Source: a virus. Taken from it: a stretch of DNA of 53,148 bases. Under the pieces are notes generated by a model, which worked only from the letters and a program-made list of their open reading frames with translations, ran no database searches and was not told where the DNA came from. The translations under genes were made by a program, and so were the position numbers. Positions 978 through 25,543 of the stretch are shown here, one piece after another. The DNA is taken from positions 1 through 53,148 of IMG/VR virus record IMGVR_UViG_3300044640_000694; one strand, given 5' to 3'. Position 1 is the stretch's first letter; every line of letters starts with the position of its first letter.

Positions 978-1217
978 TTAATTTATCGAACGCTTTATGA
1001 GCGACTCAAATACCGCTCGTTTTAAAACCGAAAGATCTATTTTTGCCGAAGCCTCATACTTGTCTATTTCTTCAAGTGCCAGTAGCGTGAGGTCTTCTCT
1101 AACATAGGCCACTCGCTCGTAGAAGTTATCTAGATCTTCTTCTTTGATGTGTGGACCATCGCAATCCCAGCTGCTCACACAGAATGGACATAGGTATTTC
1201 CCATCATTCAGTTTCAT
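978..1217 (-). CDS. Small hypothetical protein with N-terminal Cys/His cluster
   Basis: A 79-residue protein with CPFC at residues 10-13, then C19 and H23, a possible small zinc site, followed by a charged helical C-terminal half. Its ATG overlaps the end of the beta-hydroxylase-like gene by 14 bases, so it is the third gene of the sulfotransferase operon (2443, 1797, 1217). The role is unknown. The 128 bases between its end and the 849 gene hold no further supported gene, only the promoter at 856-861. Confidence 0.55.
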   Translation of the reverse strand: MKLNDGKYLCPFCVSSWDCDGPHIKEEDLDNFYERVAYVREDLTLLALEEIDKYEASAKIDLSVLKRAVFESLIKRSIN

Positions 1218-1797
1218 CGATAAACCTTATTCCTTCCAGGTATTCGTTTGGTAAAACATCAAGGATTAGATGAATCCTGTTGTCATCACTAGCATTTTTG
1301 ACACTGTGATACTTTATGTTATTAAGCTCGTACAATATTCCAGTTTTTAAATTTCTAACGTCTATTCCAGAAGAAAACGTAACAAGATAATTTGTTTTAA
1401 TTGGAATATGAAATCTTCTAGCCACATATAGGACATCAGATCTATCTTTGTGTGTCCTTATTCTGCTTCTTGGCTTCATATTGATAAACTCTGCACGGAT
1501 AAGCTTTCCACCTGCCAAAGACTCTACATAGCTAACAATGTCAGCAAATTCTTTTCTGGCTGCATCTGATGACAGGTTTCTTTTAGTTACACAAATACCG
1601 TCTGTTCCAAAGCTGTGGAAATAGTCCAGGGACCTTATCTCAAAAGCAAAGGTATCTTTATGAGTCTCATATGAATTTTGACGACTTGTATCTATCAGCC
1701 ACTCATCATAATAGGATAATACTTCTTTAGATATAGATTCTATAGCTACCTCGCCAAATTCTTCAAAGCACCAGTCATCACGCTTGTTTTTTAGCAT
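1204..1797 (-). CDS. Aspartyl/asparaginyl beta-hydroxylase-like 2-oxoglutarate oxygenase
   Basis: A 197-residue protein whose second half matches the aspartyl/asparaginyl beta-hydroxylase (Asp_Arg_Hydrox) pattern. RTHKD supplies H116 and D118, FHIPI follows at about 130, and YHSVKNAS with H164 is followed by NRIHLILD with R174. In the family the two His (with or without the Asp) hold iron and the Arg binds 2-oxoglutarate. The fold is a double-stranded beta-helix. Family members hydroxylate Asp or Asn side chains in proteins, and the substrate here is unknown. The start overlaps the sulfotransferase gene by 20 bases, so the two are translated together. This is a different subfamily from the six oxygenases at 16271-21817. 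Confidence 0.75.
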   Translation of the reverse strand: MLKNKRDDWCFEEFGEVAIESISKEVLSYYDEWLIDTSRQNSYETHKDTFAFEIRSLDYFHSFGTDGICVTKRNLSSDAARKEFADIVSYVESLAGGKLIRAEFINMKPRSRIRTHKDRSDVLYVARRFHIPIKTNYLVTFSSGIDVRNLKTGILYELNNIKYHSVKNASDDNRIHLILDVLPNEYLEGIRFIDETE

Positions 1798-2443
1798 AAG
1801 CCCACACCTCCAGATCTAACATATTTAAATCTGTTATCAAATTGTTATATTTATTTATAACATTTTGTTCTATAATCGAAGATTCGTTAATCTTAAAACC
1901 ATTTAGATCAATATCAAGTATTTCACTTACCCTGGAATACTTTTCTTTATTGTCAAAATCTACAAGAATTGTTTTATTCTTTTGTATAGTATCTACAATA
2001 GACTCAATTTCAGTACCATAGTTTTTTACAAACCAACAGTTTTCAGCCATTTGTAGTAAATTTGTTATATTTTTGTTATATTTAGGCATATCAACTTCTC
2101 CAGTTAAAAACTTTGAGTTGATATTTACAAAGCTTTCTATTTTATTTGTGGTCAAATAGTATTCAATTAGTTCTTCAAGAGATAGATAGCTATGGAATTT
2201 ATCACGAATATAGTTTATGTAGCTAAAAGTAAGATCTACTGGATTTCTAAAAATTGCAAAATTAGTATCTACATCTTTTATTGGAGTAGTTGCGAAATGA
2301 CCACTAATAAAATCATAATTAGAAAAAGACTCTGGAAGCTCTCTTATGTGACCAGAAAAAACTTTTTTACCTGATTTATTTATTGCAAACTCTCTTACAA
2401 ATACCCCACTGGTCCTGGGTATGTGAAGGTGATAAATAGACAT
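1778..2443 (-). CDS. Sulfotransferase-like protein
   Basis: A 221-residue protein. The N-terminus MSIYHLHIPRTSG resembles the HIPKTGG loop that binds the 5'-phosphosulfate of PAPS, and FAIFRNPVDLTFSYI (R66, S74) resembles the 3'-phosphate-binding RDPxxRxxS motif of carbohydrate sulfotransferases. Such enzymes move sulfate from PAPS to a sugar or other hydroxyl. I chose the ATG at 2443 because TGATACAAT ends 7 bases before it. An upstream in-frame start would add eight residues lying over that promoter. It heads an operon with the beta-hydroxylase-like gene. Possible roles are modification of the virion glycan or host surface. The Lys of the classical loop is Arg here, so activity is uncertain. 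Confidence 0.65.
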   Translation of the reverse strand: MSIYHLHIPRTSGVFVREFAINKSGKKVFSGHIRELPESFSNYDFISGHFATTPIKDVDTNFAIFRNPVDLTFSYINYIRDKFHSYLSLEELIEYYLTTNKIESFVNINSKFLTGEVDMPKYNKNITNLLQMAENCWFVKNYGTEIESIVDTIQKNKTILVDFDNKEKYSRVSEILDIDLNGFKINESSIIEQNVINKYNNLITDLNMLDLEVWAYAKKQA

Positions 2444-2450
2444 ACTACAT

Positions 2451-2456
2451 ATTGTA
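2451..2456 (-). promoter_or_regulatory. Extended -10 promoter for the sulfotransferase operon
   Basis: Minus strand reads TGA TACAAT, 7 bases, then the ATG at 2443. It sits back to back with a + strand TATAAT at 2477-2482, so the 48 bases between the two genes form a compact divergent promoter. No good -35 element is visible. Confidence 0.5.
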
Positions 2457-2476
2457 TCAGAACTCAAAAAAGCAAC

Positions 2477-3550: not shown

Positions 3551-4276
3551 ATGGCAATCAGTAAAAGCATGGACTTTCCGTCTAGCAAAAAAACTGGATA
3601 TGCTGAAGTTGCACAACAATCTCAAATTCTAGATCCTCAAATATCATATATACCAGTTCCAGGACCTCAAGGTCCAGCAGGCGATCCAGGTGCTCAGGGT
3701 CCTAGAGGAGAAAAGGGTGAGCGTGGAGAAAAGGGTGACCCTGGTCCACGTGGAGAGTCAGGAAAGCCTGGTAAAAATGGACAGGATGGAAAAACCTATT
3801 TACCAGTTTATGGACAGGATGCAGGGTGGGCAAGGTATTTTGATAAAAAAGAAAAGATAGTTCCTATAGGTGCAACCAGAGGAATCGATGGCTGGGTAAC
3901 TATTAATCTAGATATCTCAAAATCAGATGAGAAATATTTGCCAACAAACTCTGTTAGTCTTTATAATGAGAACTCAAAAAGAATAAATCTAAAATGGTTA
4001 AAGATAGGGTCTCAGGTAGACATTACCTACACATTTGAGGTAGAGACATTTTCAAATAATACTGAGTTGTGGTGTCGAACAATATTCCCAGGCACTGATA
4101 GTCAAACAACGTCTCTCGTTGGAACTCTTAAATATCAATATCTATATGAGTTTTCAATTACTCACAAGGTATATGTTGATAGTGAAATGATTAAGATTAA
4201 TGGAGCAGCTGTACAGCTACGTTCAGATATAGATGCCTTGGCCAGACTAACATCTATAGCAATTTCTGTATCTTAG
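3551..4276 (+). CDS. Collagen-like virion fibre protein
   Basis: A 241-residue protein. Residues 38-79 are fourteen uninterrupted Gly-X-Y triplets (GPQGPAGDPG... to GQDG), the sequence of a collagen triple helix. Pro occupies the Y position in three triplets (GDP twice, GKP) and Lys in two (GEK twice), the sites collagen prolyl and lysyl hydroxylases modify. About 35 N-terminal residues may anchor the protein. The C-terminal 160 residues look like a beta-rich head that could trimerise or bind a receptor. Collagen stalks are known in phage tail fibres. The six P4H-type oxygenases at 16271-21817 make it a candidate substrate, by inference only. The sequence AGGA precedes the ATG. Confidence 0.8.
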   Translation: MAISKSMDFPSSKKTGYAEVAQQSQILDPQISYIPVPGPQGPAGDPGAQGPRGEKGERGEKGDPGPRGESGKPGKNGQDGKTYLPVYGQDAGWARYFDKKEKIVPIGATRGIDGWVTINLDISKSDEKYLPTNSVSLYNENSKRINLKWLKIGSQVDITYTFEVETFSNNTELWCRTIFPGTDSQTTSLVGTLKYQYLYEFSITHKVYVDSEMIKINGAAVQLRSDIDALARLTSIAISVS

Positions 4277-6614: not shown

Positions 6615-7595
6615 ATGGTAAATGCATTTGGTTACTATGCATCTGCAAAGGGAATGGTTTTGGTTCCAGATCTTTCTGGCCTTTCCTCTGCTGCAGCAAT
6701 TGCTTTGCTAGAGTCTAATGGCTTAAACTACTCTCTAGGTTCCGATGTAGATACAAACAACGGTGCCCTAGACAATCTAGTTGCTGAACAAAGTCCAGCT
6801 TCAAATACCCTAGTTGACTATGAAACAGTTGTTCAGTTTAGACTTTACAACCTAGTTGTAATTCCACCATTCTTCCCATTCTTCCCATCATTCCCACCAT
6901 CTGTGGCACTAACGCTGACCTCTCTTGGTGAAACTTCTGTGAGGGTAGAGTGGACAGCCTCTAACTTTACTCAAACATCCTTCAAAGTTAATCGTAATGG
7001 AAGTATTATTGGACCAAGCAATAGCACAGAGACATCATTCGTTGATAATGGTTTAGATTGTGGCGTTAATTATGCATATACTCTAACACTCTATAGTGGA
7101 CCAGATGGGACTGGAAGTGAAGTTTCAGACATAGAAAGCGTAACTACTGATGCCTGTACAAACCTATATACAGTAAACTATGAATGCAATGGTGGTACTG
7201 GATGTCCAAGCGATACCACTCATAATGGAAGCTTTACTATAACTGGATCAGCACCAACGCTATCTGGTTTTGTATTTAATGGATATCATGTTTACTGTAA
7301 TTCCAGCTTTATTGGAAACTATCAACCAGGTGCAACAGTTTCTTGTGCAGGAAACCTAGAAATCCAGGCACAGTGGTCATCAGCACCACCATTCTTCCCA
7401 TTCTTCCCATTCTTCCCAACATTCCAACCAACAATATATGGAACAGGATGCTGTGCTGATGGGGCGACTGTTACTGATACAAGCACATCAGAGCAGGTAC
7501 TGCTTGACTCCCTAGAAACTAAGTGTCTTAACAGGGGATCTATTCTAGTCAATTCAGCAACTAGCCTTGTTACCTACCCAACACTTAATTGCTAG
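6615..7595 (+). CDS. PASTA / Fn3 / InlB-repeat virion protein with FFP linkers
   Basis: A 326-residue multidomain protein. In order: a PASTA-like domain (about 15-78, VPDLSGLSSAAAIALLESNGL... AEQSPASNTLVDYETVVQF), a Phe-Pro linker (about 84-97, PPFFPFFPSFPPS), a fibronectin type III domain (about 98-180), an InlB/Listeria-Bacteroides-type repeat (about 184-256, VNYECNGGTG... FNGYHVYC... LEIQAQW), a second linker (PPFFPFFPFFPTF) and a Cys-containing C-terminal domain. PASTA domains bind cell-wall muropeptides and the other domains are adhesion modules, so a host-surface binding role is likely. The FFP linkers are shared with the 15443 protein. It ends cassette A, with AGGTGA before the ATG. 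Confidence 0.7.
   Translation: MVNAFGYYASAKGMVLVPDLSGLSSAAAIALLESNGLNYSLGSDVDTNNGALDNLVAEQSPASNTLVDYETVVQFRLYNLVVIPPFFPFFPSFPPSVALTLTSLGETSVRVEWTASNFTQTSFKVNRNGSIIGPSNSTETSFVDNGLDCGVNYAYTLTLYSGPDGTGSEVSDIESVTTDACTNLYTVNYECNGGTGCPSDTTHNGSFTITGSAPTLSGFVFNGYHVYCNSSFIGNYQPGATVSCAGNLEIQAQWSSAPPFFPFFPFFPTFQPTIYGTGCCADGATVTDTSTSEQVLLDSLETKCLNRGSILVNSATSLVTYPTLNC
6864..6902 (+). repeat. FFP repeat linker 1
   Basis: Imperfect 9-base repeats of cca-ttc-ttc encode PPFFPFFPSFPPS between the PASTA-like and Fn3 domains. Confidence 0.7.
7385..7430 (+). repeat. FFP repeat linker 2
   Basis: Near-identical cca-ttc-ttc units encode PPFFPFFPFFPTF between the InlB-type repeat and the C-terminal domain. The DNA-level similarity to linker 1 suggests recent unit duplication. 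Confidence 0.7.
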
Positions 7596-13707: not shown

Positions 13708-15423
13708 ATGGCAACAAGAATGCAGCAACGTAGAGGAACAGAGTCTCAGTGGGGCACTGCTAACCCTATTCTAGCAGCTGGTGAGATCGGTTTTGAAATC
13801 GATACAAATAAATTTAAGATTGGTGACGGAATCAATCACTGGGATGACCTTGACTACTTTACTAGCTCATCTGAGCTACTAGCTATTGTTGATGGTGCAC
13901 CAGAGCTTTTGGATACCCTTAACGAAATAGCTGCAGCAATTGGTGATGACCCAAACTTCTCATCTAAGGTTGTTCCTATTGTCAAGAAGACTACCGTTCA
14001 GTGGACTGCAGACACATCTGCTATCGCAGCAGGAACCCTGGCATATGACACAACCACAGGAAAGTTTAAGATTGGAAACGGTACTGATACCTGGAGCAAT
14101 ACATCCTATCTAATCAATGCTCTAGAGATGAATGAGTCTATTACCTCAGGAATTACAGCTAGAATCGGAAGTCTTACAGTAACAGAGGCTGAGTATCTAT
14201 CTGGTGCTACAGCATCTATTCAGGGACAACTAGATGATCTTGCTGCTGCTGACGTAAGCATTCAAAGTGAGCTAGATGATAAGGCAACAACCTCTAACCC
14301 TACTTTTACTGGAACAGTAGTATTGCCAACAAGCACATCTATTGGCGATGTTTCTTCTACAGAAATTGGCTATCTAAATGGCGTAACTTCTGGAATTCAG
14401 ACTCAACTAGATGCAAAGCTTGCATCAGCTACTGCATCATCAACATATGCACCACTAAGCGGACCAACCTTTACAGGAACAGTAGTTCTTCCAAGCACTA
14501 CCTCGATCGGAGATGTTTCATCTACTGAGCTTGGATATGTAAATGGTGTTACATCTGCCATTCAGACACAGCTAGATGCTAAGGCACCTACAGCAGATCC
14601 AACATTTACTGGAACTGTTTCTGGTGTCACAAAGACTCACGTAGGACTTGGTAACGTAGACAACACATCTGACGCTAACAAGCCAGTATCTACAGCCACT
14701 CAAACTGCACTTGATGCGAAGGCAAACCTTTCTGGTGCAACTTTTACTGGTGATGTAACTGTAGAAACAGACCTAATTGTTGATGGTAACCTAACTGTTT
14801 CTGGTACTACAACTACAGTTTCTGCACAAGACCTAGTTGTTTCTGACCCACTAATCTATATTGGTGAGGGAAATACCGCTAATCTAGTTGACATTGGTCT
14901 AGTTGGATCATTCGACAATGGAACCTATCAGCACTCAGGTATCGTTCGTGATGCCTCTGCTGGAAAGTGGAAGCTTTTCAAGGGCGTAACTGATGAACCA
15001 ACAACTACTGTTAACTTTGGACAAGGATCTCTTGATGACCTTGCTGTTAATAATGTTGAGGTTTCTGGAGTTGTATTCTCTGACGGCACTCAGACAAAGC
15101 AGGGTGTTCCATCTATCACTACAATCAGTGCAAAGACAGACTCATATACACTTTCTAACCTAGATGAACGTGATACAATTGTTGAGATTAATAAGTCAAC
15201 TGCAACTACTTTGACTATTCCAACAAATGCTTCAGTAGCTTATCCAGTAGGAACAACGCTTGATATTATTCAAACTGGTACTGGGCAGGTGACAATTGCT
15301 GGAGCAGGTGGGGTTACTGTAAATGCAACTCCAGGACTAAAGCTTAGAACCCAGTGGTCTTCTGCAACACTTCTAAAGCGAGCAGAAAACACATGGTTGG
15401 TCTACGGAGACCTAACAGCATAA
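13708..15423 (+). CDS. Tail fibre with RRGT-type N-terminal domain
   Basis: A 571-residue fibre. Residues 6-50 (QQRRGTESQWG...GEIGFEIDTNKFKIGDG) form the domain found at the start of many phage tail fibres, and a degenerate second copy (about 93-130) follows. The shaft has repeats of TSIGDVSSTEIGYLNGVTSGIQTQLDAK type. A THVGLGNVDNTSDANKPVS unit, typical of tail fibres, follows. The final 100 residues are the module shared with the 5971 protein. The next gene encodes an FFP-repeat protein, as in cassette A. Confidence 0.75.
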   Translation: MATRMQQRRGTESQWGTANPILAAGEIGFEIDTNKFKIGDGINHWDDLDYFTSSSELLAIVDGAPELLDTLNEIAAAIGDDPNFSSKVVPIVKKTTVQWTADTSAIAAGTLAYDTTTGKFKIGNGTDTWSNTSYLINALEMNESITSGITARIGSLTVTEAEYLSGATASIQGQLDDLAAADVSIQSELDDKATTSNPTFTGTVVLPTSTSIGDVSSTEIGYLNGVTSGIQTQLDAKLASATASSTYAPLSGPTFTGTVVLPSTTSIGDVSSTELGYVNGVTSAIQTQLDAKAPTADPTFTGTVSGVTKTHVGLGNVDNTSDANKPVSTATQTALDAKANLSGATFTGDVTVETDLIVDGNLTVSGTTTTVSAQDLVVSDPLIYIGEGNTANLVDIGLVGSFDNGTYQHSGIVRDASAGKWKLFKGVTDEPTTTVNFGQGSLDDLAVNNVEVSGVVFSDGTQTKQGVPSITTISAKTDSYTLSNLDERDTIVEINKSTATTLTIPTNASVAYPVGTTLDIIQTGTGQVTIAGAGGVTVNATPGLKLRTQWSSATLLKRAENTWLVYGDLTA

Positions 15424-15442: not shown

Positions 15443-16210
15443 ATGGCAGCAGGAAAAAGATCAGGAAGAAAGTCTCAGGCATCCAATGACTTTTTGGAGC
15501 CATTGGCACCAACAAGCGTAACTGCAACTGACGTTGGCACTAACAGAGCATTCAACAATGGAGCTGCTTCTGTAAGCTTTTCATTACCAGCACTTTCTCC
15601 TGCAGCAACTTCCTATACAGTAACTGCAACTGCAGCAGGTCAGACAACTAGAACTGCTACTGGATCTTCATCTCCGATTGTTGTAGAAAATCTTTCTTCT
15701 AACGTTACCTATACGGTTAGTGTGACCGCTACAAATGCAGCTGGAACATCTCCAGCATCATCTACTACTACCGTCACAGCTACAACAGTTCCTGCAACTA
15801 TGTCAGCCCCAACAGCTACTGCTCAAACCAATCAGGACAAGCTTGACTGGACGGCTCCAAGCGATGGAGGTAAGTCAATTACACTATATCGCTGGACATC
15901 TTCTGACAATAAGACTGGTACAGTAAATGCTCCTGCTACTACAACCAATATTACTCAGGAAGGCGGAACAGCTCAGACATATCAGATTCGTGCTGAAAAT
16001 GCAAATGGTGTTGGTGTGTATTCTCCTGACTCTAATAGCGTAACAACTATTTCTCCATTTTTCCCACCGTTCTTCCCACCATTTTTCCCACCAAGCTTCC
16101 CATACTTTCCACCGTTCTTCCCGTTCTTCCCGTTCTTCCCAGGGTTTGGACCTTACTTCCCACCTTACTTCCCACCATTCTTTAGGAGTGGAGTGGGTGG
16201 ACCATTCTAA
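15443..16210 (+). CDS. Fn3 virion protein with FFPP-repeat tail
   Basis: A 255-residue protein. A basic start (MAAGKRSGRKSQ) is followed by two fibronectin type III domains (about 22-115 and 116-200). The C-terminus (about 203-255) is an extreme low-complexity sequence of FFPP and FFP units ending RSGVGGPF. About 80% of this tail is Phe or Pro, so it should be a stiff, very hydrophobic, surface-active extension. It lacks the PASTA and InlB-type domains of the 6615 protein but shares the Fn3 and FFP features. AAGGGAAGG precedes the ATG. If the oxygenases downstream hydroxylate proline, this tail is the densest target in the window. Confidence 0.7.
   Translation: MAAGKRSGRKSQASNDFLEPLAPTSVTATDVGTNRAFNNGAASVSFSLPALSPAATSYTVTATAAGQTTRTATGSSSPIVVENLSSNVTYTVSVTATNAAGTSPASSTTTVTATTVPATMSAPTATAQTNQDKLDWTAPSDGGKSITLYRWTSSDNKTGTVNAPATTTNITQEGGTAQTYQIRAENANGVGVYSPDSNSVTTISPFFPPFFPPFFPPSFPYFPPFFPFFPFFPGFGPYFPPYFPPFFRSGVGGPF
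16054..16185 (+). repeat. FFPP repeat array
   Basis: Tandem 9- and 12-base units (ttc-ttc-cca-cca) encode FFPP and FFP repeats. Third-position differences between units show the array is not a very recent slippage product. Confidence 0.75.
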
Positions 16211-16226: not shown

Positions 16227-16252
16227 GGGCCTAGGTGAAATATCCTAGGCCC
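16227..16252 (+). terminator. Palindromic hairpin between fibre and oxygenase genes
   Basis: A 9-bp perfect stem GGGCCTAGG/CCTAGGCCC with an 8-base loop. No T run follows on the + strand and an A-rich stretch precedes it. It may act as a terminator on either strand or a processing site. The promoter of the oxygenase block starts six bases later. Confidence 0.5.
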
Positions 16253-16257
16253 TATGC

Positions 16258-16263
16258 TATAAT
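16258..16263 (+). promoter_or_regulatory. Extended -10 promoter of the oxygenase block
   Basis: TGCTATAAT, 7 bases, then the ATG at 16271. It directly follows the hairpin, so the oxygenase genes are transcribed separately from the fibres. Confidence 0.55.
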
Positions 16264-16270
16264 TGAGGAT

Positions 16271-17005
16271 ATGAATACTTGGCTAACAAAAGATAGATCA
16301 GAAACAGACTCAAACAGAATGCCATCTAGGGTAACTCCTAGTGGTATTGTAGTAACTAATCCAGCATTAGGTATTAATGTTTATAACAATGCTATTAGTG
16401 AATCCCTATGTGATTTTATTATTAATACATTAGAAGACAACCTTAATGGTCAAACTAAGTATACTTGGCAGGGTGCTAAGGTTACAGAAGCAGACGATGT
16501 TCTGGAAGAGGCTAGAAAGTGTTTAGACTTTAAGGTAAGTTCTCAAAACCTTGGCCCTAGAGATAACGACAACGCAAAGCTATATGATATGCATGAATTG
16601 GCATTTAGATCAATTCAGCCAAACGTTGATGACTATGGTCGATACTGGGGTGTTGGCGTTAATTTCTTTGAGGCATTTAACTTTGTAAAGTATGATGGTG
16701 CAGGCACACACTTTAAGATACACGCTGACCATGGTCCAGCTTACGTAACTACCATTTCTGTAGTAGCATATGTTAATGATGACTATGAGGGTGGAGAATT
16801 GTACTTTCCAAGATTTAATCTAACCCTTAAGCCAAAGAAGGGCGATGTTATGGTCTTCCCATCAACATATATTTATGAGCATGCCTCTAATGATATGATT
16901 TCTGGCACTAAGTATGCAATTGTTATTATGACTGACTATAATGACCGTGGTGGACTAAGAAACTTTAACTATCGTCAAGAAGACATGAATAGACTAACTT
17001 ATTAA
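16271..17005 (+). CDS. 2-oxoglutarate/Fe(II) oxygenase, P4H type, copy 1
   Basis: A 244-residue protein with the prolyl-4-hydroxylase catalytic pattern: HFKIHADHG gives the iron ligands H151 and D153, YVNDDYEGGELYFPR (about 168-181) is the family signature, and H204 (third ligand) is followed by K214 (2-oxoglutarate) in SGTKYAIVIM. Such enzymes use O2, iron and 2-oxoglutarate to hydroxylate a side chain, most often proline, but some act on nucleic acid bases or small molecules. All catalytic residues are present. The start at 16271 follows from the leaderless promoter. A GTG at 16235 would read through the hairpin. It is the first of six homologues. Confidence 0.8.
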   Translation: MNTWLTKDRSETDSNRMPSRVTPSGIVVTNPALGINVYNNAISESLCDFIINTLEDNLNGQTKYTWQGAKVTEADDVLEEARKCLDFKVSSQNLGPRDNDNAKLYDMHELAFRSIQPNVDDYGRYWGVGVNFFEAFNFVKYDGAGTHFKIHADHGPAYVTTISVVAYVNDDYEGGELYFPRFNLTLKPKKGDVMVFPSTYIYEHASNDMISGTKYAIVIMTDYNDRGGLRNFNYRQEDMNRLTY

Positions 17006-17015
17006 GGAGAATTTA

Positions 17016-17720
17016 ATGTCTGATCAAGAAGATCTAAATAAAAGAATTCAAGATTTTTACAAAATAGATGAAATTACGTGGTCCTCTATTGAAGATTTTG
17101 GTAACGGCATTATTGTTTATCGTGATGTTCTGCCAAAGAGCATGGATATTATCAATAGGCTTGAAGAAGTTTTAAATGATCCAACAAATTTTTATGAGTA
17201 TCAAGAGGCCATGGTTGGCTACGGTATGAAGATTCCAGAATACCGTGACTGTAAAGATTTTAAATACAAGAAGTCAGATATTGCCGATCACCCAGGTGAG
17301 GCAGCAGAAAAACTACGTCAGTTATGGGATGATGTATACTTTAGACAGCTACAGGCAGTAAAGCACTATTGCAAGATGCACAATATTGGTGAACTTAGGT
17401 ATTGGGAAGCAATGAACTTTATTAAGTATGGACCAGGCCAGCACTTCCAGGAACATCATGACAATGGCTACTCATACAACTGTGTTCTTTCTGCAGTATC
17501 TTATCCAAATGATGACTACGAAGGCGGAGAGCTTTTCTTTAGACTTCAAAACCTCAACATTAAGGCAAGGGCTGGAGACTTATATCTTTTCCCATCTAAC
17601 TTTATGTATCCGCATCGTGCTATGCCAGTACATTCTGGAGTCAAGTATTCAATCGTTACAATGCTTGACTATTCGGACAAATACCACAAACCAGAATTTT
17701 ATATGGAGACGGGTAATTAG
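17016..17720 (+). CDS. 2-oxoglutarate/Fe(II) oxygenase, P4H type, copy 2
   Basis: A 234-residue paralogue with iron ligands H147 and D149 (HFQEHHDNG), the signature YPNDDYEGGELFF (163-175), and H200 with K210 in HSGVKYSIVTMLDY. About 130 N-terminal residues precede the core and differ from copy 1, so substrate recognition may differ. AAGGAG precedes the ATG, 10 bases after copy 1. The stop overlaps the GTG of the next gene (TAGTG), tying it to the DUF6065-like pair. Confidence 0.8.
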   Translation: MSDQEDLNKRIQDFYKIDEITWSSIEDFGNGIIVYRDVLPKSMDIINRLEEVLNDPTNFYEYQEAMVGYGMKIPEYRDCKDFKYKKSDIADHPGEAAEKLRQLWDDVYFRQLQAVKHYCKMHNIGELRYWEAMNFIKYGPGQHFQEHHDNGYSYNCVLSAVSYPNDDYEGGELFFRLQNLNIKARAGDLYLFPSNFMYPHRAMPVHSGVKYSIVTMLDYSDKYHKPEFYMETGN

Positions 17721-18430
17721 TGAAAGATATAGCTGTCTATAGACTAGGTAGCAGCTCTGCAAATATAGATCAGCTACCACTTAAAAGAGATTGGATGGAT
17801 CTAACCTTTGATAGACACGCATATCAGTGCTTTCCAGTTTCTTTAGCAAATCGTTTAGGATGGTATGTATCGTTTCCAGAAGACATATCTTTTATTTGGG
17901 ACGGTATAAATGACTCAACCTCTGGACACGTATCAATACTCTCTGGAGAAAGATATGTTCATCCAAATAGAGGTAACAGAACTATAAGCTTTAATACTGG
18001 AATATACTTCTCATCTAAGAAAAATGTGTCACTTTTAACAATGCCAGTGCCAAACCAATTTATAGAAGGCACACAGTGTTTTACCACTTTGCTGAGTACA
18101 TCAGTTCTAGAGAATGATTTTCCAATAGCCTGGATAGTAAACAAGCCAAATGAAGTTATCACTATTCCAGCAAACACACCAATAGCTGCAATTCTGCCAA
18201 TATCTCTAAATGATGTTCAGTCTTATAGTCTTAATGTTATAGACGGAATTCCAGAATTGTGGAAATCATCTGAATGGTCAAAAAGAATGAGCGATAGGGC
18301 AAAAGCTTCTGAAGCAAAAAATTCAGTAGGCGATTGGACACATTATTATCGTGATGCAGTTGATCATAACGGAGATATTGTTGGTGAGCACGAAGCTAAA
18401 AAGATTATAATGAAAGTTACAAATGGCTAA
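17720..18430 (+). CDS. DUF6065-like protein, copy 1
   Basis: A 236-residue protein with a GTG start overlapping the stop of oxygenase copy 2. Features are FPVSLANRLGWYVSFPEDISFIWDG near 38-62 and a later IPANTPIAAILPISL (about 152-166). The layout (a FP..AN..GW motif, then a G/P-rich loop with IPxxTPxAxIxP) reminds me of DUF6065, a family of unknown function. No catalytic residues can be named. It is related to the next gene and lies inside the oxygenase block, so it may supply or bind the same substrate. The stop overlaps the next start by 8 bases. Confidence 0.5.
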   Translation: MKDIAVYRLGSSSANIDQLPLKRDWMDLTFDRHAYQCFPVSLANRLGWYVSFPEDISFIWDGINDSTSGHVSILSGERYVHPNRGNRTISFNTGIYFSSKKNVSLLTMPVPNQFIEGTQCFTTLLSTSVLENDFPIAWIVNKPNEVITIPANTPIAAILPISLNDVQSYSLNVIDGIPELWKSSEWSKRMSDRAKASEAKNSVGDWTHYYRDAVDHNGDIVGEHEAKKIIMKVTNG

Positions 18431-19151
18431 GTCTATTAAGTTTATTTCAAATAGATCTTGGTTAACATCAGATAGTCAATCAAAACCAACTCCTACTAGC
18501 AAGTCTATTCCAGTATGGTATAAAGACGCTGATAGATATGCTATGAGACCAGATGGTGAGCCTTGGATAGGACAGGATGGTGGCAGAGTTGTTACATGGA
18601 AAGCTTGTCCTGCACTTTATGACATCATGACAACTGGATATGTTTATCGAACACCATGCGATATTGAATTTTATCTTAATGATTCTGGAGTAATCTCAGT
18701 AAAAATTTTAGATGATCAGTACAAGGATTTTATTCAAGCCAGGGATCCAATGCCACAGTTTGAGGTTCCTTGGGGATATTATGAGAATCACTTTGCTTGG
18801 TGGGCAGACTGGGCAGTCGAACTGCCATCTGGATATAGTGCTCTATACTCACAGCCATTTAATAGATTTGACCTGCCATTTTTAACTACTAGTGGAATCA
18901 TTGATAATGATAAGGTTCATCTGCCTGGAACAATGCCATTTTTTATAGCCAAGGGATTTGCTGGGGTAATTCCAGCAGGAACTCCATATGCACAAATAGT
19001 TCCATTTAAGCGTGAAGACTGGAAGTCAGAAATAGTAATAGAGGACCCTAAAGAGCTTTATACAAAGAATATGGCAAATACTTTTAAGTATAGAAAACCA
19101 AGCGGTGGCATATACCAGCGTGACGTTTGGGAAAGACGTAAGTACGAGTAA
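18423..19151 (+). CDS. DUF6065-like protein, copy 2
   Basis: A 242-residue protein, divergent paralogue of the 17720 gene. Both contain a W/F-rich central sheet and a closing loop: here MPFFIAKGFAGVIPAGTPYAQIVPFKRE (about 178-205), there IPANTPIAAILPISL. The N-terminal part has IPVWYKDADRY and CPALYDIMTTGY. It is translationally coupled to its partner, which suggests the two act together, perhaps as a heterodimer. The reaction is unknown. Confidence 0.5.
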   Translation: MAKSIKFISNRSWLTSDSQSKPTPTSKSIPVWYKDADRYAMRPDGEPWIGQDGGRVVTWKACPALYDIMTTGYVYRTPCDIEFYLNDSGVISVKILDDQYKDFIQARDPMPQFEVPWGYYENHFAWWADWAVELPSGYSALYSQPFNRFDLPFLTTSGIIDNDKVHLPGTMPFFIAKGFAGVIPAGTPYAQIVPFKREDWKSEIVIEDPKELYTKNMANTFKYRKPSGGIYQRDVWERRKYE

Positions 19152-19156
19152 CGTGC

Positions 19157-19162
19157 TATAAT
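19157..19162 (+). promoter_or_regulatory. Extended -10 promoter, second oxygenase unit
   Basis: TGCTATAAT, 6 bases, then the ATG at 19169. It splits the block into a first unit (16271-19151) and a second (19169-21817). Confidence 0.55.
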
Positions 19163-19168
19163 TGATTT

Positions 19169-19852
19169 ATGGAAAATCAATATACTAATAATCATAACGA
19201 GAACCCCGTATCAATAACGCCATCTGGATTCTTTGGAAATGGCCCAGAGATGATAGGAACTCTTGAAAATTTTTTAACGGAAGAAGAGCTTCAGGCATTA
19301 AATGGATTTATTCGCAACAATGAAACTTGGGATGTTACTCAAACACACTATAACGAAGACGGAACTGTAATCTATGATTCTGGATATTGGGACGGTCGTG
19401 TAGCAACCTATCCAACAATTAATCAGACAAGCCCTGAAACGGTACAAATGATTAGATCAATCGTTAAAAGATTGAAGGTTGAGATTGATAAGTTCTTTAA
19501 TGTAAGTGCTTCCCCAACATCGCCAGCACTTGTCCGCTGGCTTCCAGGCAATTTACAGATGCCTCACGCAGACAAAGAATTACATGAGGGAGATAATGCA
19601 GGAAAGCCTAATGACTTTCCTTGGTACGACATTGCTACAATTATCTATCTAAATGATGACTATGAAGGTGGAGAGCTATATTTTCCAAACCAGGGAATCC
19701 AATTTAAGCCAAAGCGTGGAGCTGCTTACTTCTTCCCTGGAGACATGAACTATATTCATGGCATAACTACAATAGAGTCTGGAATTAGGTATACCTGCCC
19801 ATTCTTCTGGACTATCACTGCTCACAATAATTCGGAGGTAGGCAATGTCTAA
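19169..19852 (+). CDS. 2-oxoglutarate/Fe(II) oxygenase, P4H type, copy 3
   Basis: A 227-residue paralogue. Iron ligands are H133 and D135 (MPHADKELHEGDN), the signature is YLNDDYEGGELYFP (160-173), and H197 with R207 follow in IHGITTIESGIRYTCPFFW. The 2-oxoglutarate anchor is Arg here and Lys in copies 1, 2 and 6. The longer loop after HxD (ELHEGDNAGKPNDF) is shared with copies 4 and 5, which suggests that copies 3-5 form one subgroup. The end overlaps copy 4 by 8 bases. Confidence 0.8.
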   Translation: MENQYTNNHNENPVSITPSGFFGNGPEMIGTLENFLTEEELQALNGFIRNNETWDVTQTHYNEDGTVIYDSGYWDGRVATYPTINQTSPETVQMIRSIVKRLKVEIDKFFNVSASPTSPALVRWLPGNLQMPHADKELHEGDNAGKPNDFPWYDIATIIYLNDDYEGGELYFPNQGIQFKPKRGAAYFFPGDMNYIHGITTIESGIRYTCPFFWTITAHNNSEVGNV

Positions 19853-20570
19853 TATTATCAATAAAGATAGTTTTATATATTATAAGGATGAGCCAATAGA
19901 GAATAGCATTCTTGGAATCAAAGATAATAGAATCGTAGAGATTCCAAACTTTGTAAGTCCAGAAGATGCAAAAAATATGATTAACTACTTTGAGGCAAAG
20001 GCTGAAATGTGGGGAGATATTGCTTTTTATGGTTCTTCTGGCATGGGGTTGCAACCAAATGACCCAATGCTTGCAGACTATCACTTGCCTGGAGACTTTT
20101 TCGATAACTTGCGTGAGCAGTTTAAGGCAAATGTAGAGGCTGTTTTTGGTAGAGAAGTAAAGGCAAACACTTCGCATGCACAAAAGTGGGATGTTGGAGG
20201 ATTTGCCAATCCACACTCAGACAACTCTGATAACCACGGAGAACCCAATGCCTTTGAGATTAACAAGTATGTGGCAATCCTGTACCTAAATGGAGATTAT
20301 GAAGGCGGAGACCTCTATTTCCCAGATCACGACATTTCGTTCAAGCCAACCCCATATGCACTAATTACTTTTCCTGGTGGGGTAGAGAATATTCACGGAG
20401 TTACAGAAATTACTGCTGGCACTAGATATACTATGGTTTCTTTCTGGGACTTTGCTGACGCAGAGTATTCTGAAGAAAAGAAGACTTGGTGGGAAGAAGA
20501 GACAAGAAAAGTTAGAGAGCAACAAGCTAAGCAAAAAGAGGAGTGGGCTAAGGGCAATAAGCTTGCCTAA
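19845..20570 (+). CDS. 2-oxoglutarate/Fe(II) oxygenase, P4H type, copy 4
   Basis: A 241-residue paralogue. H124 and D126 (NPHSDNSDNHGEPNAF), the signature YLNGDYEGGDLYFPDHDISFKP (147-168), and H184 with R194 (IHGVTEITAGTRYTM) complete the site. The N-terminus (VEIPNFVSPEDAKNMINYFE) is the usual start of the P4H fold. A highly charged helical tail (about 207-241) is added. GGAGG lies eight bases before the ATG. It is closest to copy 5. Confidence 0.8.
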   Translation: MSNIINKDSFIYYKDEPIENSILGIKDNRIVEIPNFVSPEDAKNMINYFEAKAEMWGDIAFYGSSGMGLQPNDPMLADYHLPGDFFDNLREQFKANVEAVFGREVKANTSHAQKWDVGGFANPHSDNSDNHGEPNAFEINKYVAILYLNGDYEGGDLYFPDHDISFKPTPYALITFPGGVENIHGVTEITAGTRYTMVSFWDFADAEYSEEKKTWWEEETRKVREQQAKQKEEWAKGNKLA

Positions 20571-20575
20571 TAATT

Positions 20576-21226
20576 ATGGAAAAGATTGTTCATAAACACG
20601 ATATTGTAGAGTTTCCAAACTTTTTATCAGGCGAGGAATGTCAAAAGCTTATAAGCTATTATGATGCTGGAGACTCTTTGTGGCAAGAAACTTGTTTCTT
20701 TAATGCCCGTGTAATGGATCCAAACGGACCAAAGAGCCAGCTTGGCATAGAGTTATTTAATCCAAACTTTTTTGAAGAGTTGAGACAGTCTCTAAAAAAT
20801 ATGGCTGAAGATGTTATGGGTAGACCAGTAAGAAATCTTACACTGAGTGCTCACAAGTGGCTTCCAGGAGCTTACGCAGGAGACCATGCAGACAATGCAG
20901 AGCTAGATGGAACCCCAAATGCCTGGCAAGATAATAAGCTTGTTACAATTATTTATCTTAATGATAACTATGAGGGCGGAAATCTCGCATTTAGAGATCA
21001 TGATATTTCTATTGCACCAAAGGCAGGAACGGTAATTGTATTTGATGTTGGCATTGATAATGTTCATTCAGTAACTGAGGTTACATCTGGAGAGCGTTAT
21101 ACGATGCTTCTATCTTGGGACTATGCAGATATAGACTATCCAGAAGGATTCCTAGAAGAGCTTGCAAGATTAAAGATGGCTGAGCAGCCAAAGCAAGATG
21201 AGCAAAAGAAGCAATGGAAGTCTTAA
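20576..21226 (+). CDS. 2-oxoglutarate/Fe(II) oxygenase, P4H type, copy 5
   Basis: A 216-residue paralogue, closest to copy 4: VEFPNFLSGEECQKLISYYD at the N-terminus, H104 and D106 (GDHADNAELDGTPNAW), the signature YLNDNYEGGNLAFRDHDISIAP, and H164 with R174 (VHSVTEVTSGERYTM). It also ends in a charged tail. It begins five bases after copy 4 and its stop abuts copy 6, so all are expressed together. No key residue is lost. Confidence 0.8.
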   Translation: MEKIVHKHDIVEFPNFLSGEECQKLISYYDAGDSLWQETCFFNARVMDPNGPKSQLGIELFNPNFFEELRQSLKNMAEDVMGRPVRNLTLSAHKWLPGAYAGDHADNAELDGTPNAWQDNKLVTIIYLNDNYEGGNLAFRDHDISIAPKAGTVIVFDVGIDNVHSVTEVTSGERYTMLLSWDYADIDYPEGFLEELARLKMAEQPKQDEQKKQWKS

Positions 21227-21817
21227 ATGTCATCTAAGCCTATAGTGTTTTCAGAAAAAATATTTTACTACGAATCTGTCATTGAAGATCCAAAAGGCCT
21301 AATAGAGGCAATTGAGTTATCAAACAATGACCTGTCCGAAGCCTCGTTAATATCTAGCTGGCATTCCTGGTCATCTAGTAATGGCTCTTATGTATTTGGT
21401 GAAAGAAAAACTACAAATCCAGATGCCTATATTTCAGCAGCTGAAAATGTAAGGCTCATCTTTTCACTATTGAAGGATACCCTTTCAGAATATGGTCAAG
21501 ATTACGCAAATACTCTTGGAATAAAATTAGGAACACAGATGCCAATAAGCATAAGTAAGTATTTTACGGGGGCATCCATGGGACCGCATACAGATTCTTC
21601 ACCAAATCCTACAACAGAGCATATTTCTGCTGTCCTATATCTCAATGATGACTATTCTGGTGGAGAAATTGCCTTTCCAGATCAGGAAGTAGTCATTAAG
21701 CCAACTGCTGGCAGTCTGGTAATCTTTCCATCAATACCGCCATTCTTTCATGAGTCTAGAGAGATTTTGAGTGGAACAAAGTACATGTCGCCAGCCTTTT
21801 GGCATTTGTTGGCTTAG
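21227..21817 (+). CDS. 2-oxoglutarate/Fe(II) oxygenase, P4H type, copy 6
   Basis: A 196-residue paralogue, the shortest and most divergent. Iron ligands are H121 and D123 (MGPHTDSSPNPTTEH), the signature is YLNDDYSGGEIAFPDQEVVIKP (138-159), and H175 with K185 follow (FFHESREILSGTKYMSPAFWH). The ATG immediately follows the previous stop. It closes the oxygenase block, and the next gene is a large minor tail protein. Confidence 0.8.
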   Translation: MSSKPIVFSEKIFYYESVIEDPKGLIEAIELSNNDLSEASLISSWHSWSSSNGSYVFGERKTTNPDAYISAAENVRLIFSLLKDTLSEYGQDYANTLGIKLGTQMPISISKYFTGASMGPHTDSSPNPTTEHISAVLYLNDDYSGGEIAFPDQEVVIKPTAGSLVIFPSIPPFFHESREILSGTKYMSPAFWHLLA

Positions 21818-21844: not shown

Positions 21845-24800
21845 ATGTCTAATCCATCTAATCTTTATGCAGAAAAAGTCTTTTCTGAACACCCCATTGC
21901 CCTTTGGCCACTAGATGATTCTGCTGACTATATTTCTCTAATTTCTGAGGCTCAAAGAAATATGGAATCTTGGCAGATTGATAACGGTTTAGCAGAGCTT
22001 GTAACTGGAATTATTGACGAGCCATTTCCCACAAGTCATGTATCTAAAATAACTGTAGACGATACTTCTGGAAGAGAGTTCTATGTAACATCTGTTAGCC
22101 CAGACATTGTTTCTTTTAACAACTTGAGCCAGGAGCTATCAACAATAAATGTTGGCGTTTTCTTATATTCTAATACACCATATGTTTCTGGATTTGATAT
22201 TGGGTATGAATATTATGATAGCGTTAGTGGAGCTATTGTACAAGACCTAAAGTTTTTCTCTACTGAAATATATGAAAGCTGGATCTTTATATCAGAAACC
22301 TTTACGCCAGTAATCCAGTCATCAATGATGAGACTTGTTATTCGTGCTAGGTTCTATGAGGGTGATGATGCAGAAAACTATAGCTTTTTAGTGAATGGTA
22401 TTTCTCTCGGCCAGTGGTCTGAAGAATTTAATTCATCCTCTTTAGGACAAACCCTTGAATCAATACCATCAAATATTTTTGGAGAGTCTGGGCTTTATGG
22501 AATTCCAGTACAGTCATACGGTCTTCAAAATTTTGACGGGTATTACATTGTAGAAAACTATGCACTTAAAGCTAAAAATAGTGGTTTCCCTATGGTTTAT
22601 GGAACTAACAATGTAACTACTATGCAGGGTGTGGGAAGCAGCAAGCCATCTCTTATATTGCCTTCCCTAGGCTTTTTGAATGAGTCTGGAAAATATAAAG
22701 ACTACACTGTTGAGTTCTGGATCAGGGCTAACTCAGACAGCATTATTGACAAAAAGATTTTTGGTAGCATTAGGGGTACTGATGGTGTTTATGTTGGTGG
22801 ACCATTCATTTCTTTCAAGGTAGGAGATAACTTTATTAAGCACTTTGTTGGTGAGTGGTACAGACCAATGCTTGTTCAGCTCAGGTACTCTCCATCATCA
22901 ATATCAATGATCATTAATGGTGAGCAGGTTGGAGAGGTCTTTATAGACGCTACTGAAATTGAGATGACAGAAATAACTTCCATTATCAATAACATTACGG
23001 TAGATAATGACTGGATGGCATTTTGGTCATACCAAGATGTGTCTCCAGTAGAGATAGATGCAGTTGCAATATATGGATATAAGGTACCACTTCAAGTTGC
23101 CAAGAGAAGGTTTATTTATGGTCAAGGTGTTGAGTTTCCAGAAAACATAAACAACTCTTATAGCGGAAGCTCTGTATTTATAGACTATCCATTCTCTAAG
23201 TATTCCAAAAACTATACCTATCCAAATATTGGCAAATGGTCACAGGGTGCTTATGATAATTTCAGAATAAACGGAAATACTTTAGCATTCCCAGGGTATA
23301 GCAATGCCTTAGCAGTCTTTGATAACAAAACTCAGGATCAGTGGCTTAATGATGTTAAACTAATTCAAAACGGAGATGATAGCATAATTTCTCTTAGGCC
23401 AAACTCTGGGTGGAATAATACAAACGGATATATTTATGTAAACAATTTTTCCCTATCTTCCAGCCAGGCAAAAGCTTTTTATGTTACTTGCAAAGAAGTA
23501 TCATCAGTCCCATTACAAACAAAGCAAACGGTACTTCTGATAGAAGATAATGTATTTGGGTCATACTTTGAAATAGCCATATCTCAGGATAAGATAGAGT
23601 ATATTCTAAAAGATGGAGATGGAATTACTATAGTAGATTCAAAAGAGAGATACTTCTTGGGCGAAGACTTTGCTATTGGTATAGACATACAAAGATTCTC
23701 CGATTACTATGGTGAAAAGGTTGCACAGTTTTTTGGAAGACTTTCAAATATGTCTTTGTATATAGGTGGAAGAAAAGACTTTACTCAAACATTTACTGGA
23801 AACATTTATTCTATTGGTGTATGTTCAGAAAAGAACCTAGCTGAAATACAGTCTATCTTTGGTGAGTCTGGACTAATGTTTACTGATGAATTTGTAGATG
23901 GAAATATTCTTTCTTCAACCGCAGATGCAGAATTTTATAATACTGCTGTGTATGAGTTTCTTTATGATGGCGGATCTCTTGGACAATATGCTAACAGTAT
24001 AATATTTTCTCATATAGCAAGTTATCACCTATCTTTAGTAGACTCTCAAATTTCTGGATTTGGTTTAGCTGTAGGATCAAACTCTTACTGGCAAGACTAT
24101 GTTCCATTATCTACATTTGCCAAGCTAGTTCCTGATGCCAAGGGAGACAGCAGACTGGATTTAGACTTTTTGCAGTTTAATATTGACTACCCAGCACCAT
24201 CGATTTTTATTCAAGAGCAAACAACGGGATCGTGGAGTTACGAAGAGCTGGCTTCTGAATATGCTACGCCAATTCAAAGATCATACGAATCTCTCGACAA
24301 CCATTTATTTACAGGATTTGATAGCTATGAAGATTTAAAAAACAGAGCTGAAAATACCTATAAATATGACACATCTTCTTCAATCGTAAAAACATACGTC
24401 ACATTCCAGCTGATAGAGGATAACCCAAATAAAAACCTAAACTCATTTATTAATGAAGAGAGACCATCAAAGGACGGAATTCTAAAGCCAGGAGATAACT
24501 GGCTAAATACAAAGTATGAGGTAGTAGATAACATGATTATCTACCCACCAAACTCCATACCCTTTGAAGATCTAGCAATAGTAACTCACATAGAAGCAAA
24601 GACATTAAGCATCGCTGACAGCCCAATATCAATTAGAAGGCTAGAGTACTGCTCCCTATCTTTGTCTGAAACTTCGCCAACTGCTATTGGAACTAGGTTT
24701 GGGAATGACATCTATCCATATAGAAAAGATGGATTCTACTTTACATACAATCAGGATAATCCTTTTACAATTTACAAGGGTAGCACACCATACCTTTACA

Positions 24801-25543
24801 TGACAAGAAACAGCGGAATAACCATAAAGGGACAGTACGATCCAATAGTAAACCGTGGAATAGCTGTTCCAATCAACCAGTCAAGATCTGACAATCACAA
24901 GGTAATTGCTATGCAAATGTTTCTTAGATTTGATCAAGACTTTTTCCCATACGCCCCAACACAAATCTTTGAGTTGCAAAGCAAAAACTCGTATATTAAG
25001 TTTTATATGGTTGCCACCCATCCATCTGGAAAACGTGCAAAAATCTATGCCATTAATTCCAGGGGACAAGTAGAAAATGGTTTAGCCTTCTACTTAAATG
25101 GAAAGCTAGTAAAGGATCCAACTATTACGATTAAAGAATGGGCAACTCTTGGAATTAGGTTTGCAAATACTCAAGATTTTAATAACTATGAGGGTGCTTT
25201 GCGTATAAATGGTCCACTAACCTTTAATAGTTTGTCTTATTATAAGTCTACAAACCTACAAGAAGTACAGAACGTTGTTCAAAGACCATGGTTTAAGGTA
25301 GAAAAGGCTGGCTCGCTAACGCTAGATTGGAACTATTGGAATGCAATTCCATATCTTTGGGAAGAGGTGTTGGTTATATCAACCACTAGCTATTACGGAG
25401 TTGACCCTTCAGACATCTACAAGGCTTACACAGGAACCAATAAAATTATCGTAGATGACTCAGTAGAGACAACATTTGGTGACTATGCTTATAAATTCTA
25501 TCAAAATGTTTCATGGAAGACTAATACCTACCAAGCCGTATAA
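21845..25543 (+). CDS. Large minor tail protein with LamG-like domains
   Basis: A 1232-residue protein starting MSNPSNLYAEKVFSEHPIALWPLDD, the typical opening of actinophage-type minor tail proteins that carry concanavalin/LamG folds. At least one LamG-like sandwich is visible (about 278-395: YTVEFWIRANSDS... ISMIINGEQVGEVFID) and another part near the end (about 1010-1130: MQMFLRFDQDF... FYLNGKLVKDPTITIKEWATLGIRF). Such proteins usually sit at the tail tip or shaft and bind cell-surface sugars. GGTGGTG lies before the ATG and a weak TGGTAAACT element just upstream. It stands between the oxygenases and the head genes. Confidence 0.65.
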   Translation: MSNPSNLYAEKVFSEHPIALWPLDDSADYISLISEAQRNMESWQIDNGLAELVTGIIDEPFPTSHVSKITVDDTSGREFYVTSVSPDIVSFNNLSQELSTINVGVFLYSNTPYVSGFDIGYEYYDSVSGAIVQDLKFFSTEIYESWIFISETFTPVIQSSMMRLVIRARFYEGDDAENYSFLVNGISLGQWSEEFNSSSLGQTLESIPSNIFGESGLYGIPVQSYGLQNFDGYYIVENYALKAKNSGFPMVYGTNNVTTMQGVGSSKPSLILPSLGFLNESGKYKDYTVEFWIRANSDSIIDKKIFGSIRGTDGVYVGGPFISFKVGDNFIKHFVGEWYRPMLVQLRYSPSSISMIINGEQVGEVFIDATEIEMTEITSIINNITVDNDWMAFWSYQDVSPVEIDAVAIYGYKVPLQVAKRRFIYGQGVEFPENINNSYSGSSVFIDYPFSKYSKNYTYPNIGKWSQGAYDNFRINGNTLAFPGYSNALAVFDNKTQDQWLNDVKLIQNGDDSIISLRPNSGWNNTNGYIYVNNFSLSSSQAKAFYVTCKEVSSVPLQTKQTVLLIEDNVFGSYFEIAISQDKIEYILKDGDGITIVDSKERYFLGEDFAIGIDIQRFSDYYGEKVAQFFGRLSNMSLYIGGRKDFTQTFTGNIYSIGVCSEKNLAEIQSIFGESGLMFTDEFVDGNILSSTADAEFYNTAVYEFLYDGGSLGQYANSIIFSHIASYHLSLVDSQISGFGLAVGSNSYWQDYVPLSTFAKLVPDAKGDSRLDLDFLQFNIDYPAPSIFIQEQTTGSWSYEELASEYATPIQRSYESLDNHLFTGFDSYEDLKNRAENTYKYDTSSSIVKTYVTFQLIEDNPNKNLNSFINEERPSKDGILKPGDNWLNTKYEVVDNMIIYPPNSIPFEDLAIVTHIEAKTLSIADSPISIRRLEYCSLSLSETSPTAIGTRFGNDIYPYRKDGFYFTYNQDNPFTIYKGSTPYLYMTRNSGITIKGQYDPIVNRGIAVPINQSRSDNHKVIAMQMFLRFDQDFFPYAPTQIFELQSKNSYIKFYMVATHPSGKRAKIYAINSRGQVENGLAFYLNGKLVKDPTITIKEWATLGIRFANTQDFNNYEGALRINGPLTFNSLSYYKSTNLQEVQNVVQRPWFKVEKAGSLTLDWNYWNAIPYLWEEVLVISTTSYYGVDPSDIYKAYTGTNKIIVDDSVETTFGDYAYKFYQNVSWKTNTYQAV

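Follow-up and report, generated by a model that had tools for sequence, protein, structure and literature searches.

An array of six oxygenase genes paired with an FFP-repeat fibre protein in a lake siphovirus: a probable virion-finishing cassette

IMG/VR virus record IMGVR_UViG_3300044640_000694 carries, next to a fibre gene, an array of 2-oxoglutarate (2OG)-Fe(II) oxygenase genes, and across related phages the class of the oxygenase follows the class of the repeat in the fibre protein beside it. The window analyzed here is the whole of this 53-kb linear virus record (53,148 nucleotides), which we assign to a related siphovirus because its portal is ~48% identical to those of Streptomyces siphoviruses such as MindFlayer and Yaboi; its relatives in IMG/VR number in the hundreds. 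The array is a block of eight genes on the plus strand, in the order OX1, OX2, DUF6065, DUF6065-like, OX3, OX4, OX5 and OX6, such that the oxygenases are split 2+4 by two DUF6065-type genes, which the first-pass annotation of this DNA had overlooked. Upstream lies the gene for FFP2 (15443–16210, plus strand), an fn3 protein (PF00041, 33.8 bits) with a C-terminal FFPP/FFPFFP repeat that was read directly. Comparative sequence analysis makes it probable that the array oxygenases hydroxylate the FFP repeat of this neighbouring fibre protein, and that the array is a virion-finishing cassette in this lake siphovirus. The modified residue would most likely be proline.

Oxygenase class follows fibre repeat class

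The pairing was examined from four entry points: loci selected by their portal, the DNA pattern FFPPFFPPFFP, enzyme-driven scans, and a profile scan for a solitary PF13640 subfamily. In the combined class table, similar enzymes were thinned and random open reading frames (ORFs) from the same loci served as the control. The first gene of the array (n=55) occurred with FFP repeats in 45 cases, with other repeats in 0, and with none in 10. A second 2OG oxygenase family (n=80) was accompanied by F-x-P-F repeats in 64 cases, by FFP in 3 and by none in 13, and the solitary PF13640 subfamily (n=43) by TP repeats (TPTP/APTPV) in 34, by FFP in 6 and by none in 3. Among random ORFs, 948 of 1078 (88%) were without any such repeat.

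The individual entry points gave a consistent picture. Portal-selected loci, which were picked independently of both the repeat and the enzyme traits, contained PF13640 genes in 10/10 FFP clusters and the second family in 0, while 7/7 F-x-P-F clusters had the second family. Of the loci recovered by the DNA pattern, 70 were 8 kb or longer and 57 of these held a PF13640 gene; where such a gene was present the FFP gene lay a median of 121 bases from it, compared to 1433 for other ORFs. Oxygenases that persist in the absence of any FFP protein would, by the first-pass annotation's own criterion, have spoken against virion hydroxylation; the enzyme-driven scans found an FFP protein in 38/38 distinct PF13640-array loci, and in 0/51 loci of the second family. 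For the solitary subfamily, the profile scan, which replaced a narrower one-enzyme scan giving 5 loci, placed a TP/APTPV repeat protein just upstream of the enzyme in 43 of 47 distinct loci. Finally, the portal tree held 18 FFP/array and 72 F-x-P-F/second-family loci, with none off the diagonal among those clearly called, and repeat and enzyme class switched together in 5/5 independent switches.

The second family had no Pfam match. Its AlphaFold model (predicted local distance difference test score, pLDDT, 94.5) has the double-stranded beta-helix fold, with invariant H127, H129, H177 and R188, and gave 81 matches in the PDB at E<0.001; among those listed, most were named 2OG oxygenases, including PHD2 and other prolyl hydroxylases. 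Because Pfam gave no match, the model is confident and the structural matches are 2OG oxygenases, we regard this family as a 2OG oxygenase lineage in its own right, linked to a repeat class of its own. Two further genes were noticed. In F-x-P-F phages (L029, L030, L049), a PF13640-like gene of ~200 aa lies between the second-family enzymes and a homologue of the 1232-aa tail-like protein, and often has an altered iron site, for example Q-x-D; it is a possible pseudoenzyme. Directly 3' of the solitary enzyme is a gene of ~195 aa with an HKDD motif (L459:5172-5768, L461:5698-6276, L463:6150-6728), perhaps encoding a further oxygenase.

The same array order recurs in IMG/VR phages behind fn3 proteins that carry an FFP repeat at the C-terminus; the median is 6-7 oxygenases per locus. 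FFP2 itself has about 250 relatives there. Among 117 distinct FFP loci (7 kb downstream), the commonest order was 1-D-2-D-3-P-P-P-P (n=27), and the order of the window, 1-2-D-D-3-4-5-6, was found 8 times. The number of oxygenases climbs with repeat length (rho 0.47), a correlation that ignores kinship and is not used here as support. Searches of the phage collection gave no match to the DNA of the array region, nor to the FFP2 protein. Bacterial genomes yielded 17 FFPP matches, four of which (L287, L291, L298, L299) were long FFP repeats on contigs of metagenome-assembled genomes that also carry PF13640 and/or DUF6065 genes. One match (L296) was a short FFP-rich protein with neither gene, and most of the remainder look like chance or reverse-strand frames.

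Six ancient and catalytically intact copies

All six array oxygenases exceeded the PF13640 cut-off of 27 bits (30.6-51 bits) in a Pfam profile search, occupied six distinct places in the record, and retained the complete iron/2OG set of H-x-D, distal H and K/R, as the first-pass annotation had stated. These active-site residues were also retained in 997 of 1019 non-identical relatives. The genes, all on the plus strand, are OX1 (16271–17005, or from GTG 16235; 42 bits, omega 0.02-0.07), OX2 (17016–17720; 51 bits, omega 0.03-0.04), OX3 (19169–19852; 30.6 bits, omega 0.03-0.06), OX4 (19845–20570; 31.7 bits, omega 0.04-0.05), OX5 (20576–21226; 46.8 bits, omega 0.07-0.09) and OX6 (21227–21817; 44.9 bits, omega 0.05-0.12, with dS saturated in one of two pairs). 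Judged from these values of omega (dN/dS), which span 0.02-0.12 against the orthologues in two relatives (L020 and L023), purifying selection acts on all six genes.

Copies 2-6 are only 24-39% identical to the first copy, and a tree built from 152 enzymes grouped those of positions 1, 2 and 3 by position across phages; OX1, OX2 and OX3 thus each belong to a positional orthologue group. Recent tandem duplication as the origin of the six copies was ruled out, the copies being old positional orthologue groups. The best profile matches in the PDB were prolyl 3-hydroxylase (P3H1) and the Bacillus anthracis prolyl 4-hydroxylase (P4H), followed by PKHD-type hydroxylases, LH3 and EGLN1. These matches support a protein hydroxylase identity and leave the 4-position unspecified.

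Organization of the array and its surroundings

The proposal that the array forms two transcription units held up. The extended -10 promoter motif TGCTATAAT stands directly before the ATG of OX1 (16255–16263, plus strand) and that of OX3 (19154–19162, plus strand; ATG 19169); none of the other array genes is preceded by it. The window contains the motif TGNTATAAT 16 times compared to 3.55 expected, a count reached in 0/100 shuffles, and it also precedes several structural genes of the window. We therefore recognize two array promoters of the structural-gene kind. The motif before OX1 is kept in close relatives, and it precedes 80 of 153 OX3 orthologues versus 2 of 147 OX2 orthologues. With TGCTATAAT only a few nucleotides from the ATG, the promoters look leaderless, which may fit a putative actinobacterial host.

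Between FFP2 and the array is a 9-bp hairpin (16227–16252, plus strand), with stem letters that differ on both sides in relatives; the arms are GGGCCTAGG/CCTAGGCCC in the window, AGACCCAGGA/TCCTGGGTCT in L009 and AGAGCCTAGG/CCTAGGCTCT in L023. Because GTG 16235 falls within this covarying hairpin and TGCTATAAT ends 7 nt upstream of ATG 16271, the latter is preferred as the start of OX1.

DUF6065 proteins constantly accompany FFP arrays. D6065a (17720–18430, plus strand) matches PF19541 at 95 bits (cut-off 26.6) and recurs within arrays. D6065b (18423–19151, plus strand) by itself matched no Pfam family, was included as a seed in the same iterated profile as D6065a, and matches phrog_7084 at 115.5 bits; its AlphaFold model (pLDDT 93.1) has a predicted beta-clip core. 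Foldseek returned weak matches for this model, two of them with E<0.001 (best 7e-4), with low template-modelling (TM) scores to the query, and all those listed were dUTPase or dCTP deaminase; by sequence, D6065b did not match these enzymes. GIIDxD and GTPxxQ motifs in DUF6065 proteins (window 17720-19151; L301:7860-8744) recall dUTPase motifs, and the model points to a beta-clip fold. Halovirus HF2 also encodes a DUF6065 relative; on one side of it is a ribonucleotide reductase and on the other, a few genes away, are a minor virion protein and a baseplate gene.

Upstream of the array, a fibre gene with an Mtd-type N-terminus (13708-15423) precedes FFP2, and downstream is the gene for the 1232-aa tail-like protein (21845-25543). 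A second FFP-containing protein, FFP1 (6615–7595, plus strand), is a PASTA protein (PF03793, 33.5 bits) with FFP stretches and an fn3 match under the cut-off; the nearest array gene is 8.6 kb away, and FFP1 is a possible second substrate in trans. A clean swap of repeat and enzyme at the FFP1 locus was considered and rejected, with too few and mixed cases: FFP without enzyme in the window, TP with the solitary enzyme in G006, FFP with the solitary enzyme in G001, and TP without enzyme in L274. Many FFP and F-x-P-F fibre proteins end in a domain that looks Hint/intein-like or in a Cys-rich tail (L231:9992-11263, L040:2691-3995, L456:14997-16271), PF13403 being below its cut-off in L231, so that the repeat proteins may be able to process themselves.

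At the left end of the window, an aspartyl/asparaginyl hydroxylase gene (PF05118, 42.6 bits; 1204-1797, minus strand) is a seventh oxygenase-like gene that had also been overlooked. It adjoins a sulfotransferase-like gene (phrog_3347; 1778-2467, minus strand), and comparable pairs are found next to second-family oxygenase genes in L405, L414 and L418 (PF03567 in L414), hinting that virion parts may be hydroxylated as well as sulfated.

Proposed function and alternative explanations

During assembly, the oxygenases would hydroxylate the FFP repeat of FFP2, an fn3 protein of fibre or tail, before its incorporation into the virion, and that of FFP1 perhaps too. Hydroxylation would stiffen or hydrate a very hydrophobic rod, or improve an adhesin, and the six paralogues would probably target different residues or sequence contexts within one repeat. 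The idea of virion-protein hydroxylation, put forward from the sequence at first pass, is strengthened by the tracking of repeat class by enzyme class, the retained active sites and the structural-gene promoter motif. Its corollary that separate enzymes serve separate fibre proteins found no support in that form: the array as a whole accompanies a single repeat class (FFP), and proteins with other repeats have other enzymes. More generally, the odds lean slightly toward repeat-specific virion modification as a trait of tailed phages, in which distinct oxygenase classes for each repeat class (FFP, F-x-P-F, TP/APTPV) are swapped together with it like lock and key, and several enzymes divide the labour on a single repeat.

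Several observations weigh against FFP hydroxylation by the array. There were only 5 independent switches (sign test p 0.0625), and with adjacent genes one recombination could swap repeat and enzymes without functional coupling. FFP repeats lacked a nearby PF13640 gene in 13 of 70 pattern loci (at least 8 kb) and in 17 of 161 (3 kb downstream), partly fragments. Both enzyme families occurred together with F-x-P-F repeats in L442 and L444, and L270 and L274 had F-x-P-F and DUF6065 with neither enzyme nearby. Repeat patterns and thresholds were fixed post hoc, with the data already in view. In other viruses, hydroxyproline was undetected in purified virions of PBCV-1 despite its active viral P4H (PMC7019647), and the cyanophage stretches that we checked had PF13640 genes but no FFP repeat. 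Absences of genes are soft, because many contigs are fragments. Because the switches are few and could be produced by block exchange, we give more weight to how widely the pairing holds among lineages than to the switch count.

The same contiguity and small number of switches would be expected if repeat and oxygenases were merely exchanged as a block, the true targets being, for example, host proteins, the host surface or 2OG pools, as has been suggested for the 2OG oxygenases of cyanophages; the cyanophage literature handles such genes as metabolic (PMC3037559, PMC9602691). However, three enzyme classes each lie behind their own repeat class in many phages, and six divergent, catalytically intact copies kept in order exceed the need of 2OG draw-down, making such hitch-hiking distinctly improbable. 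Somewhat less improbable, although still unlikely, is a reading that shares the fibre protein as substrate and differs in chemistry: the residue modified might be other than proline (e.g. Phe/Tyr), or some copies might add successive oxidations to one residue. Aromatic residues abound in FFP and F-x-P-F repeats, PF13640 is chemically broad, and six copies acting on one simple repeat invite different positions. On the other hand, Pro or Lys is the target of the nearest relatives with solved structures, and the solitary subfamily pairs with TP/AP repeats, which have Pro in common.

Modification of nucleotides or DNA bases, with TET/JBP-like base hydroxylases and DUF6065 as a dUTPase-like partner, would account for the matches of OX3, OX4 and OX5 to the TET/JBP family PF12851, although at 16-19.5 bits these fall below the Pfam cut-off of 34.9, and the PDB profile matches are to protein hydroxylases. 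We keep this explanation, at a very slim chance, because the D6065b model weakly resembles the beta-clip proteins dUTPase and dCTP deaminase; that fold match is itself weak and has no counterpart in sequence, and the array sits among virion genes and tracks the fibre repeat type. Nearly as remote is the first-pass suggestion that the oxygenases serve the collagen-like protein encoded at 3551–4276 (plus strand). This gene is real (PF01391, 37.9 bits), as are both FFP proteins. Nevertheless, across 30 records collagen was present in 12/22 with arrays versus 3/8 without (p 0.68), so that enzyme and collagen showed no association of the kind expected of a collagen prolyl-hydroxylation system, and collagen was rejected as the array's partner. 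Arrays without collagen were found in G003, G023, G024, G026 and G030, and collagen without a PF13640 gene in one 112-kb record (G011).

Comparison with known systems

Phage oxygenase genes are generally classed as auxiliary metabolic genes of unknown role. The pairing described here names candidate substrates and allows a direct test, and it bears on the purpose of viral prolyl hydroxylases. If hydroxylation of the FFP repeat is borne out, post-translational hydroxylation of phage fibres would be common in lakes, and such fibre proteins made in standard expression hosts would miss their native chemistry. The enzyme-repeat pairing was undescribed in the literature searched, with most subscription papers and all preprints outside reach; within it, no paper contained FFPPFFP or DUF6065, and none joined phage, proline hydroxylation, tail and 2-oxoglutarate.

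Prolyl hydroxylases of bacteria and animals (B. anthracis P4H, prolyl 3-hydroxylase 1, EGLN1) resemble the window copies in the profile of the catalytic core and in the common HxD...H...K/R set. They are encoded by single or few genes and, unlike the window array, have no tie to phage fibre repeats. Streptomyces siphoviruses such as MindFlayer and Yaboi are alike in their portal and differ in having no DNA match to the array region and no match to FFP2. The active prolyl 4-hydroxylase of PBCV-1 has Pro-containing peptides as substrates and is present in all chloroviruses, its role unknown (PMC7019647), and the use of viral P4H was called cryptic in a study of Baltic viromes (PMC9301287). PBCV-1 is a eukaryotic virus with one enzyme, in contrast to the phage arrays of the window's kind, which stand beside a repeat protein of the matching class. 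T4-like cyanophages resemble the window in that PF13640 and related oxygenases are present in many copies: 1-5 2OG-Fe(II) oxygenases are typical, and S-SCSM1 has 24, of which three come just after short tail fibre genes. These genes have been interpreted as metabolic (PMC9602691, PMC3037559). Their identity to the window copies is at most 39%. The novelty that the first-pass annotation saw in several copies was therefore overstated in part, since multi-oxygenase phages are known (PMC9602691), and its count of six intact copies stands. Viral prolyl hydroxylases and multi-oxygenase cyanophages were thus already known, and what is new here, as far as the literature searched shows, is the pairing of enzyme with repeat.

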